A DNA stretch of 12,712 bases from Amoebophrya sp. AT5.2 (lineage: Eukaryota; Sar; Dinophyceae; Syndiniales; Amoebophryaceae): contig RXOD01005733.1 in the NCBI GenBank assembly GCA_005223375.1, forward strand, positions 1 through 12,712, given 5' to 3'. This document shows positions 1 to 12,712 of the stretch, one piece after another. The notes beneath the pieces were generated by a model. The model was not told the origin of the DNA, ran no database searches, and worked only from the letters and a program-made list of their open reading frames with translations. Both the position numbers and the translations under genes were made by a program. Every line of letters starts with the position of its first letter. The first letter of the stretch is position 1.

Positions 1-871
1 AGTACGCCAAAACAAGTTGCCCCTGGTGCCGGAACCGCGACGGCGACGAGCGCAGACAAGATAAAGCGGAAGCCGAAGACGCTCGCGGACATTTTGAACC
101 TTCGCCGGGTGCTTTCCCCCCGCGAGCGCAAGGCGCTGCATCTCCGCGACAAGTTCCAGGACTTTCCTCTCTCTCCGGAGGGGGCGAACATACTGGCTGC
201 CAATCACGACGTTCGTTGCGACACGGTCACGGTCGGCCTGCCCTTCGGCGCGAGCCTCCGCACCGCCGGCACGCTCGCCTGTCGGCAGGGCCGGCTCGTG
301 CTCGCCGGCGACGAAATCTCTGGCACCTTCCTGGCCGCGGCTGCGCCGAGCGACGCGTCGAACTCGCTGTTTTCAGACGAAGACTTAAGTCGAAACCAAC
401 CGGCGCCAAAACGATTCCGGACGCAATCCCAACCAGTTTCAAAATCTCAGGACTTCGCGACTTCGTCAAAATGCGCGGCACTCTTGCTCTTTCTTTTGTC
501 TTGGGTGGCGCTTAGGTTTTCGCGACAGGTTTAGAGCTTTTGAGCTCCTCGCGCTAGGTATGACGAAGTGGAGATGTGCGAGGCACTTTGGCCCCGTACG
601 AACTTGGCAACTTCGGGGCTCTGTTTGAGTATTAGAAGGGATTTAAAAAGCAATTAAAAGGCTAATAAAAGGATATTCCAAGAAAAATCACGAGATAGGT
701 CAGAAGTAGGTAAGAGAAAAATCACGACCAGCCACCTTATTATGGGATTGAACGCCGAGCGACGCGTCGAACTCGCTGTTTTCAGACGAAGACTTAAGAC
801 TGGAGGATGAGCTCGGTAGAAGAAACCCGCAGGAAAGACGCCGGAAAGATACCGGAAAGACGACAAGTTAG
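1..871 (+). CDS. 3' end of a gene of unknown function, interrupted by a repeat-flanked intron-like unit (partial)
   Basis: Frame 1 is open from the left edge, so the 5' end lies outside the window. The visible part has a basic Thr/Ala-rich stretch, then a compact region around residues 30-115 (LSPRERKALHLRDKFQDFPL, then LPFGASLRTAGTLACRQGRL), and an acidic end (NSLFSDEDL). I do not recognise a family. Read straight through, the frame ends with TAG at 532-534. However, the last 46 coding bases before 390 recur exactly at 753-798. Joining copy 1 to copy 2 keeps the frame and gives a charged tail (RLEDELGRRNPQERRRKD) ending with TAG at 869-871. The spliced form is my preferred model because that tail reads like a normal hydrophilic C-terminus, whereas the read-through tail ends in an odd hydrophobic stretch. 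Splice points are uncertain, and no GT-AG pair fits removal at the repeat. Confidence 0.5.
344..389 (+). repeat. 46-bp direct repeat, copy 1 (coding)
   Basis: Identical to 753-798 over all 46 bases, offset 409. It lies at the end of the open frame of the first gene and encodes SDASNSLFSDEDL. It is far too long for chance in a window of this size. Confidence 0.95.
390..752 (+). other. Probable non-canonical intron or insertion between 46-bp direct repeats
   Basis: Removing one repeat plus this segment (409 nt in all) restores an open frame from 1 to 868. Within the ambiguity allowed by the repeat, junctions ending in AG would start CG, AC or TC, so none is GT-AG. A 9-bp inverted pair lies inside (463-471 with 560-568). 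It could be an intron made by tandem duplication of an exon end, or simply a duplication with an orphan second copy. The window alone cannot decide between these. Confidence 0.45.
753..798 (+). repeat. 46-bp direct repeat, copy 2
   Basis: Exact second copy of 344-389. In the frame continuous with copy 1 after removing 409 nt, it leads into a 24-codon tail ending at 871. The segment between the copies (390-752) is more AT-rich and has stops in all forward frames, as expected of an intron. It also holds a 13-bp direct repeat (681-693 and 715-727). Confidence 0.95.
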
Positions 872-7870: not shown

Positions 7871-9963
7871 ATGGCAGACGTGCTCGTGACTGCTACTCTC
7901 TACTTTGTGTTTGCGTTTTGTTTCTCTCTGTTCAACATTCTCCAGTGTGATATCGCGACCACCAACGACATCTACCAGGGGCTGGTTCCTCGGTTCGTCT
8001 CGAAGCCCTTTAAGGGCGGCGCCGGGGCCAGCGGGGACAACGACCAGGCCGTTCCCAACCAGCAGCCCGAGAGGTACTTCCACGACATCCGCACCGCCGA
8101 TGACGTGTATCTGTGGCTCCGGACGGTGTTCGTTCCCTCCGTGTACAAACGCAGCTCCGTCCGCAATGGGGACCCCACCTTCTGCACGAACCGAAACCAG
8201 TGCGTCCTGCACGAGGGCCCGGTGGACGGCGCCGACGAGTGCCACCCTTGGCTTCACGCAGGGCACCGCAACTGCAACCGGTGGATGGGCCTCGCCGCAA
8301 ACTGCTGCGAGCCGTGCGAGAACCGCAACGTCACCGGCGGCGGCAGCTACGACTCGCCCGCGGGCGAGGAGTTCTGCCCGGCCTCCAAGTACACCGTCGA
8401 CAGCGCGAAGTACGACTGGGTGTTCGACAGCCGGGTGGACGACCTCGCCGCCGCTTGCCAGGTTCCCGGGGGTACCGTCGACGACGCCACGGGCGGCTAC
8501 GGTAGCCTCACCACGCCGGCCTACTTGGTCGACTACAACACAGGGCTCACCAACGTCGCGACGTTCTGTCCGGAGCTGCTGTCGTCGCCGGGGTATGGGG
8601 AGAGCACGGACCGGCGGGACAGTGGGGGCGGCCAGGTGAGGCGGCGGGTCTCCGAGTTCAACCAGATGCTGTTCACGCGCATGAGCTTCAAGCGCGCGAA
8701 ATTAATCAAGTTCTCCAACGACCGGCTTTCTTCCAGCTACGAGTTTGTGAAGGCGCAGCCGACGGGCTCGGTGTCGAACCCGGGCCCGGACGGGGAGGAT
8801 ATTTCGGCTTTTTCCACCCGCACGAGTTATTCGGCGAACCTGGGGTACGGGAACTACGGCGGGTTCCTGGAGTACCTCCACCCGGAGTACTCGCTGCAGA
8901 CCGCCGAGAACCAAATCATACACATGAAGCGCGAGAACTACTTCGATAGCGTGAAGTTTTCCAGTCTTCTTGTGGAGGCGATCTTTTTCAACGGCAACGA
9001 GGACACGTTTCTCCACCTATTGTTCAGCTTCGAGATGCAGAGCAACGGGCTGATCCGCCCTACGTTCCACGTGATCCCCTTTTCGTTAAACCTGTACAGC
9101 AGCTCGGCGCTGAACTACTTCCGGTTATTCCTCGAGATCGTGGTGCTTGTGCTGTTCGGCTTTTTCCTCGTGGACGAGTGGAGCAACTTCGCGGACGCGC
9201 CGCGGGCGTACCTGTCGAAGTCCAGCAGTTGGCTGTCGATCGTCTCGCTCGGGTTCACCCTGATCACCGTGGTGCTGTACGTGGTGCTGGTGGTCTCGCA
9301 CGACTACACCGCGCTGATGCTGCCACTGCCGTCGCTCGAGGACGGGCGGGAGATCACGGAAGGCTGGATCGAGGGGATCACGTCCCTGCAGTTTTTGAGC
9401 GAGCGCGCGGACGCCGTCGCCAGCGCGGCCAGCGTGAACATCTGCTTCATTTTCATCCGGCTTTTGACCCTGCTGGCGAACGTGTCGCCCAACCTCGGCC
9501 TGGTGCTGCAGTCGCTGTCGCAGGGCCAGGCCTCGCTGGCGTGCTTTCTGTTTCTGTTTTTGCTGTTGTTCTGCGGGTTCGCATTGTCTGGGTATTTGCA
9601 ATTCGGGGGGAACGTGGAGATGTTCAGTACCTGGTACAAGGCGCTGCTCACTTGCCTGCGCATGTCCATGGGCGACTTCGACTTCAAGCTGCTAAAGAAT
9701 TCTGCGCAGACCCCGTTCATCGCGACCGTCTGGTTCATCTTGTTCATGGCGATCTTCTTCCTCGTCCTCGTAAACATGTTTCTCTCCATCATCGTCAGCT
9801 GCTACAACAAGCAGGTTAAATATTTAAACGAGCAATTAGAAATCCACGGGGAGATCGACTCGCTCAAGCTGTTCGTGCATTCGGCGATGGAGAAGTTCGG
9901 CAAGACCTTCACGGTGTTTGAGAGATTGAAGATGCTGGCGGCGCTGAACGCGAGCAGCGGCAG
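7871..9963 (+). other. Polycystin module 1 (exon): S1 to S6
   Basis: Residues about 5-27 form S1, almost at the N-terminus, so there is no N-terminal cytoplasmic domain. The extracellular domain spans about 28-415 and carries a Cys cluster (C105, C111, C124, C135, C145, C146, C149) and a sequon N153-V-T. Its last part follows the polycystin pattern (YGGFLEYL, then FFNGNEDTFLHLLFSFEM), but the usual YNAN motif is altered to FNGN. S2 is about 417-438, S3 454-476, S4 522-540, S5 556-576 (followed by GYLQFGGNVEMFSTW, close to PKD2). The pore and filter are near G601-D602-F603-D604-F605, and S6 spans about 616-645 (VLVNMFLSIIVSCYNKQVKY). An acidic residue after the filter Gly fits a Ca2+-permeable or non-selective cation channel. 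No EF-hand is visible. Confidence 0.85.
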
Positions 9964-12712
9964 CTATGACGGCCAAATACATAGACTTCTGAGAAATAAC
10001 GACTTCAAAAATTTTAAACTTCGAGATCATCAACAAGTGGGCGGAGCAGGTGAGTGGCCGCGTGGATGCGTCCGCATCCACGCGACCACTCACCCCACCT
10101 ATTCGCTCCTACTTGCTTTGTTTGATTCGGTTTACTTGGCTGGATTGATTCATTGGCTTGATGCATCGGACTCATTCATCGGTCATCGGCATCAGCATCG
10201 CAGAACAATCATCAAAACAATGCGCAAGCATGCTGGTTCGAAATTTTTGAAGAGATTGAAGATGCTGGCGGCGCTGAACGCGAGCACCAGCGGCAGAAGT
10301 CTATTTGGCCGTCATAGCAGCGGCAGCAAAAAACTAAACTTCGAGATCATCAACAAACTGAAGGCGCAGAAGCGGGCGGAGAGCTACCCGGGGTCGGTGC
10401 ACTGCATGGCGATCAGCTCGCTGTTTTTGCTGTTTTTCATCGCGATCACGCGGATCACAAGGATCAGCGACAGCCTGGCCTACCGCGTCTCCACGCTGGC
10501 GGACCTCGAAACGGCGGAGTGGTACAGCACCTCCCACGTGAGGGAGGAGGTCTCCATGCTCCGAAGCATCGAGGGAACACGAGTCGTATGACCCGGAGGT
10601 GCCCAACTGTGAAGTTGTGCTGATGAAGTTGTACTATGATATGAAGTAACGTCTGGGTCCGGGCGGCGATGGTCTGTTTTCAATCTTGGGTATACTTTCT
10701 ACGACGCCGAGGCGCCGTCTCGTGCGGCCTCAGTTTGGGGTAAATTTAAAGTTGTTTATGTTTCCACGTCTCCCTACTAATACGCAAGATTCACCCATTC
10801 CCATGAACATGATATTCCCCTCCCACTAGCTCATCTCCCGGCGCCGGGCGGTCGAGAGCGCGTGCTAGGTTTTGCCTTAGAAACCCAGCCGGTCCTCCTA
10901 CTTCATATTAGTTGCTTGTTACTTCACAGTTCACACTCACAGTTCGACCTTCCATAAGTCGACGCGGGGGTGAATAAAGAGGACGGCAACGCGCATTTCA
11001 AGTCGGAGACGGTGATGCAGCAGACGGAACGGAGAGTGCCGGCCTCCGGGGTACAGAGCATGGCCGACGTCGAGAAGTGGGCGCGCTCGGCGATCGTGGA
11101 GGACATGTACGGCTGCGCGCCGCCAACATTCACGGACGACTGCGGCAAAACCAAAAACCTGTTTCCAACACGGGAACCGGACGGGTGGATGCTGTTTGAC
11201 GGCACGAAGCTGGGTGACTTCGAGACCGACAGCGGCCTGAACCGCAGATACCTGACGGCAGCGGTCGGGGGCACCGGGACGGCGACCGGTGCTGGGGCTG
11301 CAGCCGGGACCACTACGGGAGGCGGAGCTGCAACTTCTAGTTCCTCTGCTCTTTCCGTCACGGAATTGCGGAACGCGATCCAGCTGAGCCTCGGGTACCT
11401 GTTCGACTACACGGCCACGACGGAGGTGAAGAGCCCGATGCCGGCAGCCAACCCGGTGTCTGTGACCGCCCGCACGCCGCGGGTCCGCGAGTGGAACCTC
11501 GGGTCCGTCGGCAGCGACAATTTCTTCCGGCTGAAAATCGAGCCCGCGTGCTTCTCAGAGAACACGGCGACGCGGTGGAAGGACGGCTACCCCTACGTGT
11601 TTCTGCAGGACTCCGCCTACGTCGACGAGATCACGACCGGAGACAGCCGGAGCTGCGTCCACTTCCTCAGCTCCGGAGTCGGGGACACTGTCGCGAACTT
11701 CACGGGGAAGGCATCCGGCACCCTGTACACGCTGCGGAGAAGACCGACAGATAAGGACAGCGGGGAGACGGGCGGGTACTACCTCGTGGGGCTCGGCAAG
11801 ACGCGCACCGAGGCGCGCCGCGTGCTGGACGTGCTGAAGGAGGACGGGTTTTTCTCCGTGCAAACGCGAAAACTCACCTTCGACTGGATTCTGTACAATG
11901 CGAACCTGGACCTTTTTTCGTACAACACCGCCACCTTCGAGGTGCTGCCCTCCGGCCGCGTCTCCTACGACTTGTCCAACACCGTCTTTCCTGTCCAACA
12001 CCTGTTTTCCGGCGGCACCACGGAAACGCTCATCGCCGCAAGGGATTTCAACTTTGCACTGATGATCCTGTACGTACTCCTGGTGATCTGGGTGACGGTC
12101 GGTGTGTTCATCTCGGAGCTGCTCGTGCAGAAACAAATCAGCAGCGAACTGGCGAGGCCCTTCTACGGATTTTTAATCGACTTCTTCGACGACGGGTACA
12201 ACTACATCAACCTGGCGAGCGCAGTCGCGAACGTCGCGGTGATCGTGTCGTGGCTGCAATTCGTGGCGAACCCCGTGCACGAGGCGCTCCTGGACCGAAC
12301 GGGAACCATGACCGCAGCTGCGGTCTACGCGGAAAGCGGTATAGTTGTCGATCCTCTTTATCTCCACTCAGTTCATGATGTGCGGTGAAACTGAAGTCTA
12401 CTTCATCTCACCCGATCTATCACTATGTTAGAGTGCTTGCCCTTGCTTCTTATTCAATAGGTCGTGGCTGCAGCTGCTATGTGTCGCAAATGCGTTCACG
12501 GCTCCCGCGATGATCGCCAACAACTTTTTCTCATAGCGACCCAGCGTTCACAAAAATTTCCCCAGTGGTTTCTCACCACGAGCAGTCTACGCTCGATTCC
12601 TTCGCCGAGGCTTCTGTTTCTTGGAACACGTTTGTGGCTTGGTCCGCCATCAATTCCTTCCTCCTCGCGTTGCGCATCCTGAAGTACTTTGTATGGTGGG
12701 ACCAGCTGGTAA
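7871..12712 (+). CDS. Tandem polycystin (PKD2/TRPP-like) cation channel, at least two six-helix modules in one protein (3' partial)
   Basis: Starts at ATG 7871 (AAAGATGG context; upstream in-frame stop at 7775, no earlier Met). Polycystins are six-helix cation channels of plasma or ciliary membrane with a large extracellular domain between S1 and S2. Module 1 is complete: S1, extracellular domain, S2-S5, pore with GDFDF, and S6 with NMFLSII. The frame then runs, with no stop, through a cytoplasmic linker into a second S1 (about 10403-10456). After an intron it continues into a second extracellular domain with the family motifs GGYY and YNANLDLF, then S2 and S3, and after another intron S4. 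The window ends at a GTAA donor, so S5, pore and S6 of module 2 lie outside. Proposed exons: 7871-9963, 10327-10585, about 11003 (or 10959)-12338, 12566-12708. The family call is firm; the exon borders in the middle are less so. Confidence 0.82.
9955..9963 (+). repeat. 9-bp direct repeat CAGCGGCAG, left
   Basis: Immediately left of the left inverted repeat. The same nine bases stand immediately right of the right inverted repeat (10318-10326), like a target-site duplication. A third copy lies at 10288-10296 inside the element. Confidence 0.9.
9964..9991 (+). repeat. Left terminal inverted repeat, 28 nt
   Basis: Reverse complement of 10294-10317 with an extra CATA. Begins CTATGACGGCCAAATA and ends GACTTCTG. 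Confidence 0.9.
10015..10036 (+). repeat. Displaced copy of the downstream exon start (copy of 10335-10356)
   Basis: 22 bases starting TAAACTTCGAGATC are identical at 10015 and 10335. The inner copy is in a different frame from the main open frame and is followed shortly by CAG|GTGAGT at 10047-10055. Confidence 0.85.
10049..10094. repeat. Near-perfect palindrome, 22-nt arms, 2-nt spacer
   Basis: Arms 10049-10070 and 10073-10094 pair with one mismatch. The left arm begins at the last G of CAG|GTGAGT, so a consensus 5' splice site lies in the stem, and the right arm reads the same way on the other strand. It could form a cruciform in DNA or a strong hairpin in RNA. Confidence 0.95.
10251..10296 (+). 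repeat. Displaced copy of the upstream exon end (copy of 9921-9963)
   Basis: Identical to 9921-9963 except for three added bases (CCA). It encodes the same LKMLAALNAS stretch in the main frame. It lies just inside the right end of the element, so the order is upstream end, left repeat, downstream copy, spacer, upstream copy, right repeat, downstream exon. Confidence 0.9.
10294..10317 (-). repeat. Right terminal inverted repeat, 24 nt
   Basis: Reverse complement of 9964-9991 apart from the 4-nt indel. It is followed at once by the 9-bp direct repeat at 10318-10326. Confidence 0.9.
10327..10585 (+). other. Exon with cytoplasmic linker and S1 of polycystin module 2
   Basis: Encodes a basic linker (KKLNFEIINKLKAQKRAESY) and a hydrophobic helix CMAISSLFLLFFIAITRI at about 10403-10456. 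Then follows the start of an extracellular domain (SDSLAYRVSTLADLETAEWY) comparable to the region after S1 in module 1. A GTATGA donor at 10586 (phase 0) stands just before the in-frame TGA at 10589-10591. Because S1 must be followed by the extracellular domain found downstream, the TGA is probably intronic and not the gene end. Confidence 0.65.
10586..11002 (+). other. Probable intron between S1 and extracellular domain of module 2 (borders uncertain)
   Basis: The donor GTATGA at 10586 and an acceptor at 11002 (CATTTCAAG|TCG) agree in phase 0. An acceptor at 10958 is closer to the open frame limit but is phase 1. The segment is AT-richer with pyrimidine tracts, a TACTAAT branch-like sequence near 10776, and a 12-bp palindrome at 10837-10848. 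If it is not an intron, it would be the spacer between two genes, leaving an orphan S1. Confidence 0.45.
11003..12338 (+). other. Polycystin module 2 (exon): extracellular domain, S2 and S3
   Basis: The open frame covers 10958-12388. The N-terminal part (VQSMADVEKWARSAIVEDMY) matches the position of DIRTADDVYLWLRTVFVPSV in module 1. Hallmarks are GGYYLVGLGKTRTEA (GGYY at 11771) and WILYNANLDLFSYNTATFEV (YNAN at 11894), which follow the PKD2 pattern better than module 1 does. A Thr/Gly/Ala-rich loop sits near 11260-11340. S2 is about 12053-12121 and S3 about 12200-12270. A phase-1 GTATAG donor follows at 12339; without it the frame stops at 12386-12388. Confidence 0.8.
12339..12565 (+). other. 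GT-AG intron, 227 nt, phase 1
   Basis: The donor AGCG|GTATAG and the acceptor ATTTCCCCAG|TG agree in phase. The joined product (VYAESVVSHHEQSTLDSF) leads straight into the S4 exon. Confidence 0.65.
12566..12708 (+). other. Polycystin module 2 exon with S4 (window ends at its donor)
   Basis: Encodes FAEASVSWNTFVAWSAINSF, then LLALRILKYFVWWDQL, the S4 pattern of polycystins (hydrophobic, then a basic residue and KYF). A GTAA donor begins at 12709, phase 0. An earlier GTATGG at 12691 is a possible alternative, also phase 0. S5, pore and S6 must lie beyond the window. Confidence 0.7.

Follow-up and report, generated by a model that had tools for sequence, protein, structure and literature searches.

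A repeat-bounded element within an exon of a polycystin-type channel gene

The window (the whole stretch of DNA analysed, 12,712 nucleotides of contig RXOD01005733.1 of Amoebophrya sp. AT5.2) encodes a polycystin-type channel, and one exon of this gene contains a 352-bp element with inverted ends. A first-pass annotation had recognised the host as a channel gene, and the Pfam matches bear this out. The channel frame and the parts of the element are arranged as follows.

7871..10591, forward strand: channel reading frame with the element, first polycystin unit (PF08016, 6.1e-15; PF00520; PF20519; A120 ortholog)
9954..9964, forward strand: left direct-repeat copy, 11 bp; its last 5 bp, GCAGC, are the likely target-site duplication (TSD), as judged from the 5-bp TSD in eight other copies
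9965..10316, forward strand: 352-bp introner-like TIR element within the channel exon; termini TATGACGGCCAAATA at both ends, defined by alignment to copies C2145, C1007 and C2583
9965..10019, forward strand: left inverted-repeat arm, matching both C2145 arms
10036..10252, forward strand: element interior, 94% identity to C2145
10049..10094, forward strand: central hairpin with 22-nt arms, common to four copies
10294..10316, forward strand: right inverted-repeat terminus, 23 bp
10317..10327, forward strand: right direct-repeat copy, 11 bp; its first 5 bp are the likely TSD

The best definition of the inverted ends pairs 9965–9991 with 10294–10316, with 23 identical bp and a single 4-nt bulge. 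The inverted ends described in the first pass, at 24–28 nt, are real; arms of 26 nt, at 88%, include part of the direct repeat. Direct repeats are likewise present, but instead of the 9 bp first noted they extend over 11 bp (GCAGCGGCAGC, at 9954–9964 and 10317–10327), with the 5-bp GCAGC nested within. Element plus one repeat comes to 363 nt (352 + 11), as originally counted, or to 357 nt (352 + 5) with the 5-bp repeat, and both are divisible by three. The earlier observation that the insert is stop-free in the host frame holds, as we find no stops; 5,000 dinucleotide shuffles contain on average 4.06, and 1.3% of them are stop-free (P = 0.013). Both termini read TAT-GACGGCC-AAA, and in a predicted RNA fold the two ends are paired (z -9.2). 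Neither GT-AG nor GC-AG borders occur at any direct-repeat register of the window copy, on either strand, or at any TSD register of the eight other copies described below, extending the initial report that no repeat-bounded junction is GT-AG.

The ortholog in strain A120, a related-strain comparison that had been proposed at the outset, is contiguous across the insertion site and reads through it with no insert: ERLKMMATLNASTSGSKKLNFELI. Aligned to A120, the window protein scores 225 or 224 after exact removal (with the 5-bp or 11-bp repeat, respectively), and 106 when the insert is retained; the exon beyond the insert remains close to A120. Among the 7,996 candidates sharing most words, protein searches gave no match to channel residues 1–694, and A120 was the only protein found with residues 450–906. 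The A120 ortholog is 1569 aa long and a second polycystin domain is located at window 10958–12385 (PF20519) within 7871–12712, so that the gene seems to encode a two-unit channel. The assembly to which the window belongs spans 50.7 Mb. One of its HSP90 genes, with exons joined by hand, has 100% identity to an Amoebophrya sp. protein (taxid 88552) from a transcriptome, 94% to that of A120 and 91% to that of A25, which places the genome in Amoebophrya, whose members parasitise dinoflagellates. Genome GC is 55.2% in a 67-kb sample; the published values are 51.2% for A120, 47.8% for A25 and 55.92% for AT5, so that by base composition it could be AT5 or a relative.

Related copies share a 5-bp target-site duplication

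The first-pass annotation had made its introner-type reading depend on further copies in the genome. Sequence and pattern searches identified these, with the same ends as the window element; the ends of the related elements are TATGACGG, TATGGC or TATGAGG, and their inner arms resemble ACTTCAAAAATTTT. Nine copies, 338–456 bp long, were seen with both ends, and all nine have a TSD of 5 bp:

C1937 (the window): GCAGC, readable as 11 bp too
C2145: TGTTC
C1007: TCCTC
C2583: TGTTT
C302: AAAAC
C829: CGCGA
C1775: CCCGC
C272: CACGA
C1137: GCGTG

We therefore set aside a 9–11-bp TSD as the basic unit, the 11-bp window repeat probably reflecting the AGC/GGC-rich exon. C302, C829, C1775, C272 and C1137 belong to related subfamilies; their ends read TATGAGG, TATGGCG or TATGGCC, and the TSD is again 5 bp. 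The arms are about 42–61 bp in the three unrearranged relatives that were aligned. Eight of the nine copies have every one of the six frames interrupted by at least one stop; the window copy is the exception.

A pattern combining end and inner arm gives 8 matches, as against 0 in a reversed control, and a looser form gives 15 against 3. With the bare 15-nt end and up to 2 mismatches allowed, 35 matches were obtained versus 27 in the control, indicating that most bare-end matches are due to chance. The inner-arm pattern matched 15 further contigs, of which eight were examined: both ends were present in five (C302, C829, C1775, C272 and C1137), C1077 is cut off by the contig end, the C1913 stretch did not reach the right end, and in C1370 no right end was seen. 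The TSD count excludes C662, C689, C400, C466, C2566 and C1741, in which one end is missing or unseen, as well as C1904 and seven of the 15 inner-arm contigs; the outer flanks of C662 and C689 share no common TSD. In C662, the left end of the copy has a long inverted repeat (CAAGATCAAGCCGCCCTGCAAT...ATTGCAGGGCGGCTTGATCTTG) immediately next to it (L004 1410–1468). Neither element ends nor inner arms are present at five loci that differ from the central hairpin by one mismatch. A combined TIR and TSD search of 112 kb of loci returned two matches, both known copies, with 0.11 expected; it missed other complete copies within these 112 kb, including that in the window, and its result is thus no sign that introners are rare.

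Exact removal of the element rejoins coding frames

When the element and one repeat are removed from C2583, C829, C1775 and C272, the flanking sequences join into frames of 330, 318, 246 and 461 aa respectively, each longer than the frames obtained when the join is moved by 1 or 2 nt in either direction. The exact join does not exceed every shifted join in C1137 (184 aa vs 134–210), the window (320 vs 235–331), C2145 and C1007; in C302 it does so, but with a frame of only 52 aa and about 90 bp of flank on each side. Chance long frames are common in this GC-rich genome, and the window frame is settled by homology to A120. A Methyltransf_24 match runs across the C2583 join with 41.9 bits, compared with 29.7 for the right part alone and none for the left. 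C829, C1775 and C272 had no Pfam match, and the one for C1137, to AAA, was below threshold. Only one flank of the C400 copy, at a contig end, is visible, and it carries a B9-C2 domain frame (69.1 bits) that borders on the element. For three of the nine copies a split coding exon is not evident: C2145 sits inside a GT-AG intron of another gene, and C1007 and C302 have no clear coding context. Judged from the sequences, four copies, and by homology the window copy, appear to behave as precisely removable inserts in coding exons, as introners look. The nine 5-bp TSDs, the several split reading frames that rejoin on exact removal and the A120 sequence together lend support to the introner-type reading of the first pass.

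The main rival is that the element is retained in the mRNA as an exonised insertion, adding 119 codons to the channel. The stop-free host frame and a length, with TSD, divisible by three would both suit retention, and of the nine only the window copy has an open frame: its left arm differs by 4 nt from that of C2145, which takes the frame past a TGA present in that frame of the C2145 arm. Against this, GC3 is 0.50 in the insert and 0.87 and 0.86 in the exons, A120 has no insert, and other copies with stops in all frames sit in open genes. Retention would also give the channel a further hydrophobic stretch, at the threshold for a membrane segment (KD 1.62 vs 1.65–1.80 for the other segments listed), which is a weak argument. 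We consider retention unlikely, albeit the most credible of the alternatives.

The window copy contains pieces of both exon flanks, exchanged

The element was first taken to be a plain insertion, but it is an internally rearranged copy. Direct repeats of 44 nt (D1) and 42 nt (D2) at the window element, overlooked in the first pass, indicate that it contains copies of both exon flanks:

9921..9956, forward strand: E1, left exon flank, source of E1'
10015..10036, forward strand: E2', 22-nt copy of the right exon flank (10335–10356), of which 10020–10035 stands for 127 bp of C2145 interior
10253..10293, forward strand: E1', 41-bp copy of the left exon flank, standing where C2145 has 8 bp of right arm
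10335..10356, forward strand: E2, right exon flank, source of E2'

The nearest relative is C2145, which aligns with the window element over 217 bp (10036–10252) at 94%. Where C2145 has 127 bp after the left arm, the window element has 16 bp (10020–10035) of right-flank sequence, within an identical stretch of 22 nt (10015–10036 and 10335–10356). In the right arm, 8 bp are swapped for 41 bp (10253–10293) of left-flank sequence, and 36 nt are identical (10251–10286 and 9921–9956). The order is therefore left arm, E2', interior, E1' and right end, with joins that share few bases at most. One codon distinguishes E1' from E1: E1' has a Thr codon shared with A120 and absent from the present left flank, suggesting that the template of E1' was an older or allelic form, or that the flank has changed since. 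None of the eight other copies has captured flank, the longest direct match between element and flank being 11 nt (300 bp on each side where available, about 90 bp for C302). We dropped the idea of a tandem exon duplication around the element because E2' and E1' flank the interior on opposite sides. The rearrangement fits break repair with template switching, as proposed for Pack-TIRs in the accessible part of that study (PMC8277862). The break probably followed excision of the element, an inference from the anatomy, and another break within the element would serve equally.

The duplicated exon piece could alternatively provide a canonical GT-AG intron, for example with a donor at 9914 and an acceptor at 10252, such that E1' replaces E1 in the mRNA. 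There are 213 frame-keeping GT/GC-AG pairs at the window site; the 9914–10252 pair keeps the frame and scores 203 against A120, and the Thr codon of A120 is kept in E1'. However, every pair scores below exact removal, the best (209) having a GC donor and the best with a GT donor reaching 204, and none of the 213 has a GTA donor, unlike the three HSP90 introns checked, in which the donors are GTA and the acceptors AG. This explanation also leaves the other copies unaccounted for, and we regard it as improbable. The HSP90 introns (C274) start with GTA after G and end with CAG before GT, so that short bases are repeated at both of their borders. A search for U1 snRNA found no match, and as the control was likewise silent it is uninformative.

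The flank copies rest on one assembly, without reads, and could also be an assembly artefact derived from two haplotypes or misjoined reads, the true element being an ordinary copy. Other copies stop at contig ends, suggesting that the element breaks assembly, and the one-codon difference between E1' and E1 is possible for another haplotype; however, the observed order would need four joins with only few shared bases, and we accord an artefact little probability. Very improbable, and the weakest of these readings, is a recent, unspliced transposon hit that is gene-disabling or polymorphic: some copies lie outside coding exons, such that the element need not be an intron, but the exon beyond the insert is still close to A120 and four other split genes are open on both sides, which only a very recent hit would be compatible with.

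A possible second insertion in the window

A perfect 46-nt exon direct repeat is present at window 344–389 and 753–798, in a reading frame. The interior of the segment between the two repeats recurs on C1394, with 91% identity over 151 bp, and weakly on C150, and removal of 409 nt at 344–798 leaves the frame open for 25 further codons. The 344–798 region may be a second repeated insertion with duplicated exon sequence.

Comparison with known elements

As far as the available text of Farhat et al. 2021 (PMC7789003) goes, introner elements are defined by inverted repeats of 8–20 nt and direct repeats of 3–5 nt, and the end motif in A120 is TAT, seven less-conserved bases and at least three A. 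Inverted repeats, a border direct repeat of 5 bp, repetition in the genome and non-GT-AG borders are all found here as in the A25 and A120 elements of that account (PMC7789003), and the TAT-N7-AAA motif of A120 is present at both window ends; in C1007 and C2583 there are just two A, and the ends of C302, C829, C1775, C272 and C1137 are different. The present elements differ from those described in the same account (PMC7789003) in their longer arms (about 42–61 bp in the three unrearranged relatives), in belonging to another strain and in the copies of exchanged exon flanks. Splicing in A25 and A120 was shown there by RNA-seq (PMC7789003), whereas here it is suggested by frame restoration. Removal at the direct repeat does not give the GT-AG borders of a canonical U2 intron, and GT/GC-AG pairs elsewhere fit A120 less well.

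Inverted terminal repeats with a TSD of fixed length are those of a cut-and-paste non-autonomous DNA transposon. Introners of other eukaryotes, in the portion of Gozashti et al. 2022 available (PMC9860276), similarly have DNA-transposon-like ends and TSDs, and their removal restores a coding frame; in the examples given there (PMC9860276) the splice sites either belong to the element or are taken from the TSD, whereas here no TSD register gives GT-AG or GC-AG.

The copied host DNA, 36 nt and 22 nt of the exon flanks, within a TIR element is what characterises a Pack-TIR. The Pack-TIR gap-filling elements of Tan et al. 2021 (PMC8277862), in the part of the paper available, also carry nearby host DNA and have short shared bases at some joins; they are described there in animals, whereas the element here is introner-like and the pieces are its two immediate exon flanks, swapped left and right. 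In the titles and abstract openings of the introner literature searched, exon flanks captured by an introner do not appear as a subject. Abortive gap repair of Ac/Ds with filler DNA was reportedly described by Rubin and Levy in 1997, and is said to yield the same internal deletion and short filler at joins; those are maize hAT elements and no introner.

Discussion

The interpretation that we favour, and hold to be somewhat likelier than its alternatives combined, is that of an introner-like element, probably removed as a non-GT-AG intron, and later remodelled by break repair with template switching. Anatomy and comparison indicate that a short non-autonomous inverted-end DNA element of the Amoebophrya introner kind inserted into the channel exon and made a 5-bp TSD, most simply after the split from strain A120. 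In RNA, the paired element ends could bring the two exon ends together, such that the element and one duplication would be removed at non-GT-AG borders and the channel frame restored; by analogy with the other copies and the published strains, the window copy is most likely spliced. A later double-strand break, most likely from excision of the element, would have been repaired with template switching, during which part of the interior was presumably lost while the left arm received a copy of the right exon flank and the right arm a copy of the left one. What sets this copy apart, in an otherwise known kind of element, is the exchange of exon flanks.

A broader possibility, which we put forward tentatively and think rather less likely than not to hold in general, is that Amoebophrya introners are cut out as DNA and that break repair copies neighbouring exon ends into the intron, so that introns would be remodelled by their own excision; this could leave an insert in frame and free of stops, shifting an intron towards coding sequence. 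Farhat et al., in the text available, favour copy-paste, and the lack of a transposase in A120 is said there to rule out general transposase-driven movement (PMC7789003), which counts against a reading based on excision and break repair.

These observations suggest the presence of introner-like non-GT-AG elements in an Amoebophrya genome beyond A25 and A120. A 2025 paper, in the part available, suggested that only a subset of the genus has such elements (PMC12005148); if the elements described here are spliced, and subject to the identity of the strain, they would be more widely spread within it. Introners may move by copy-paste or by cut-and-paste, and a copy with exchanged flanks, which looks like a scar of break repair, makes cut-and-paste movement testable at one locus.
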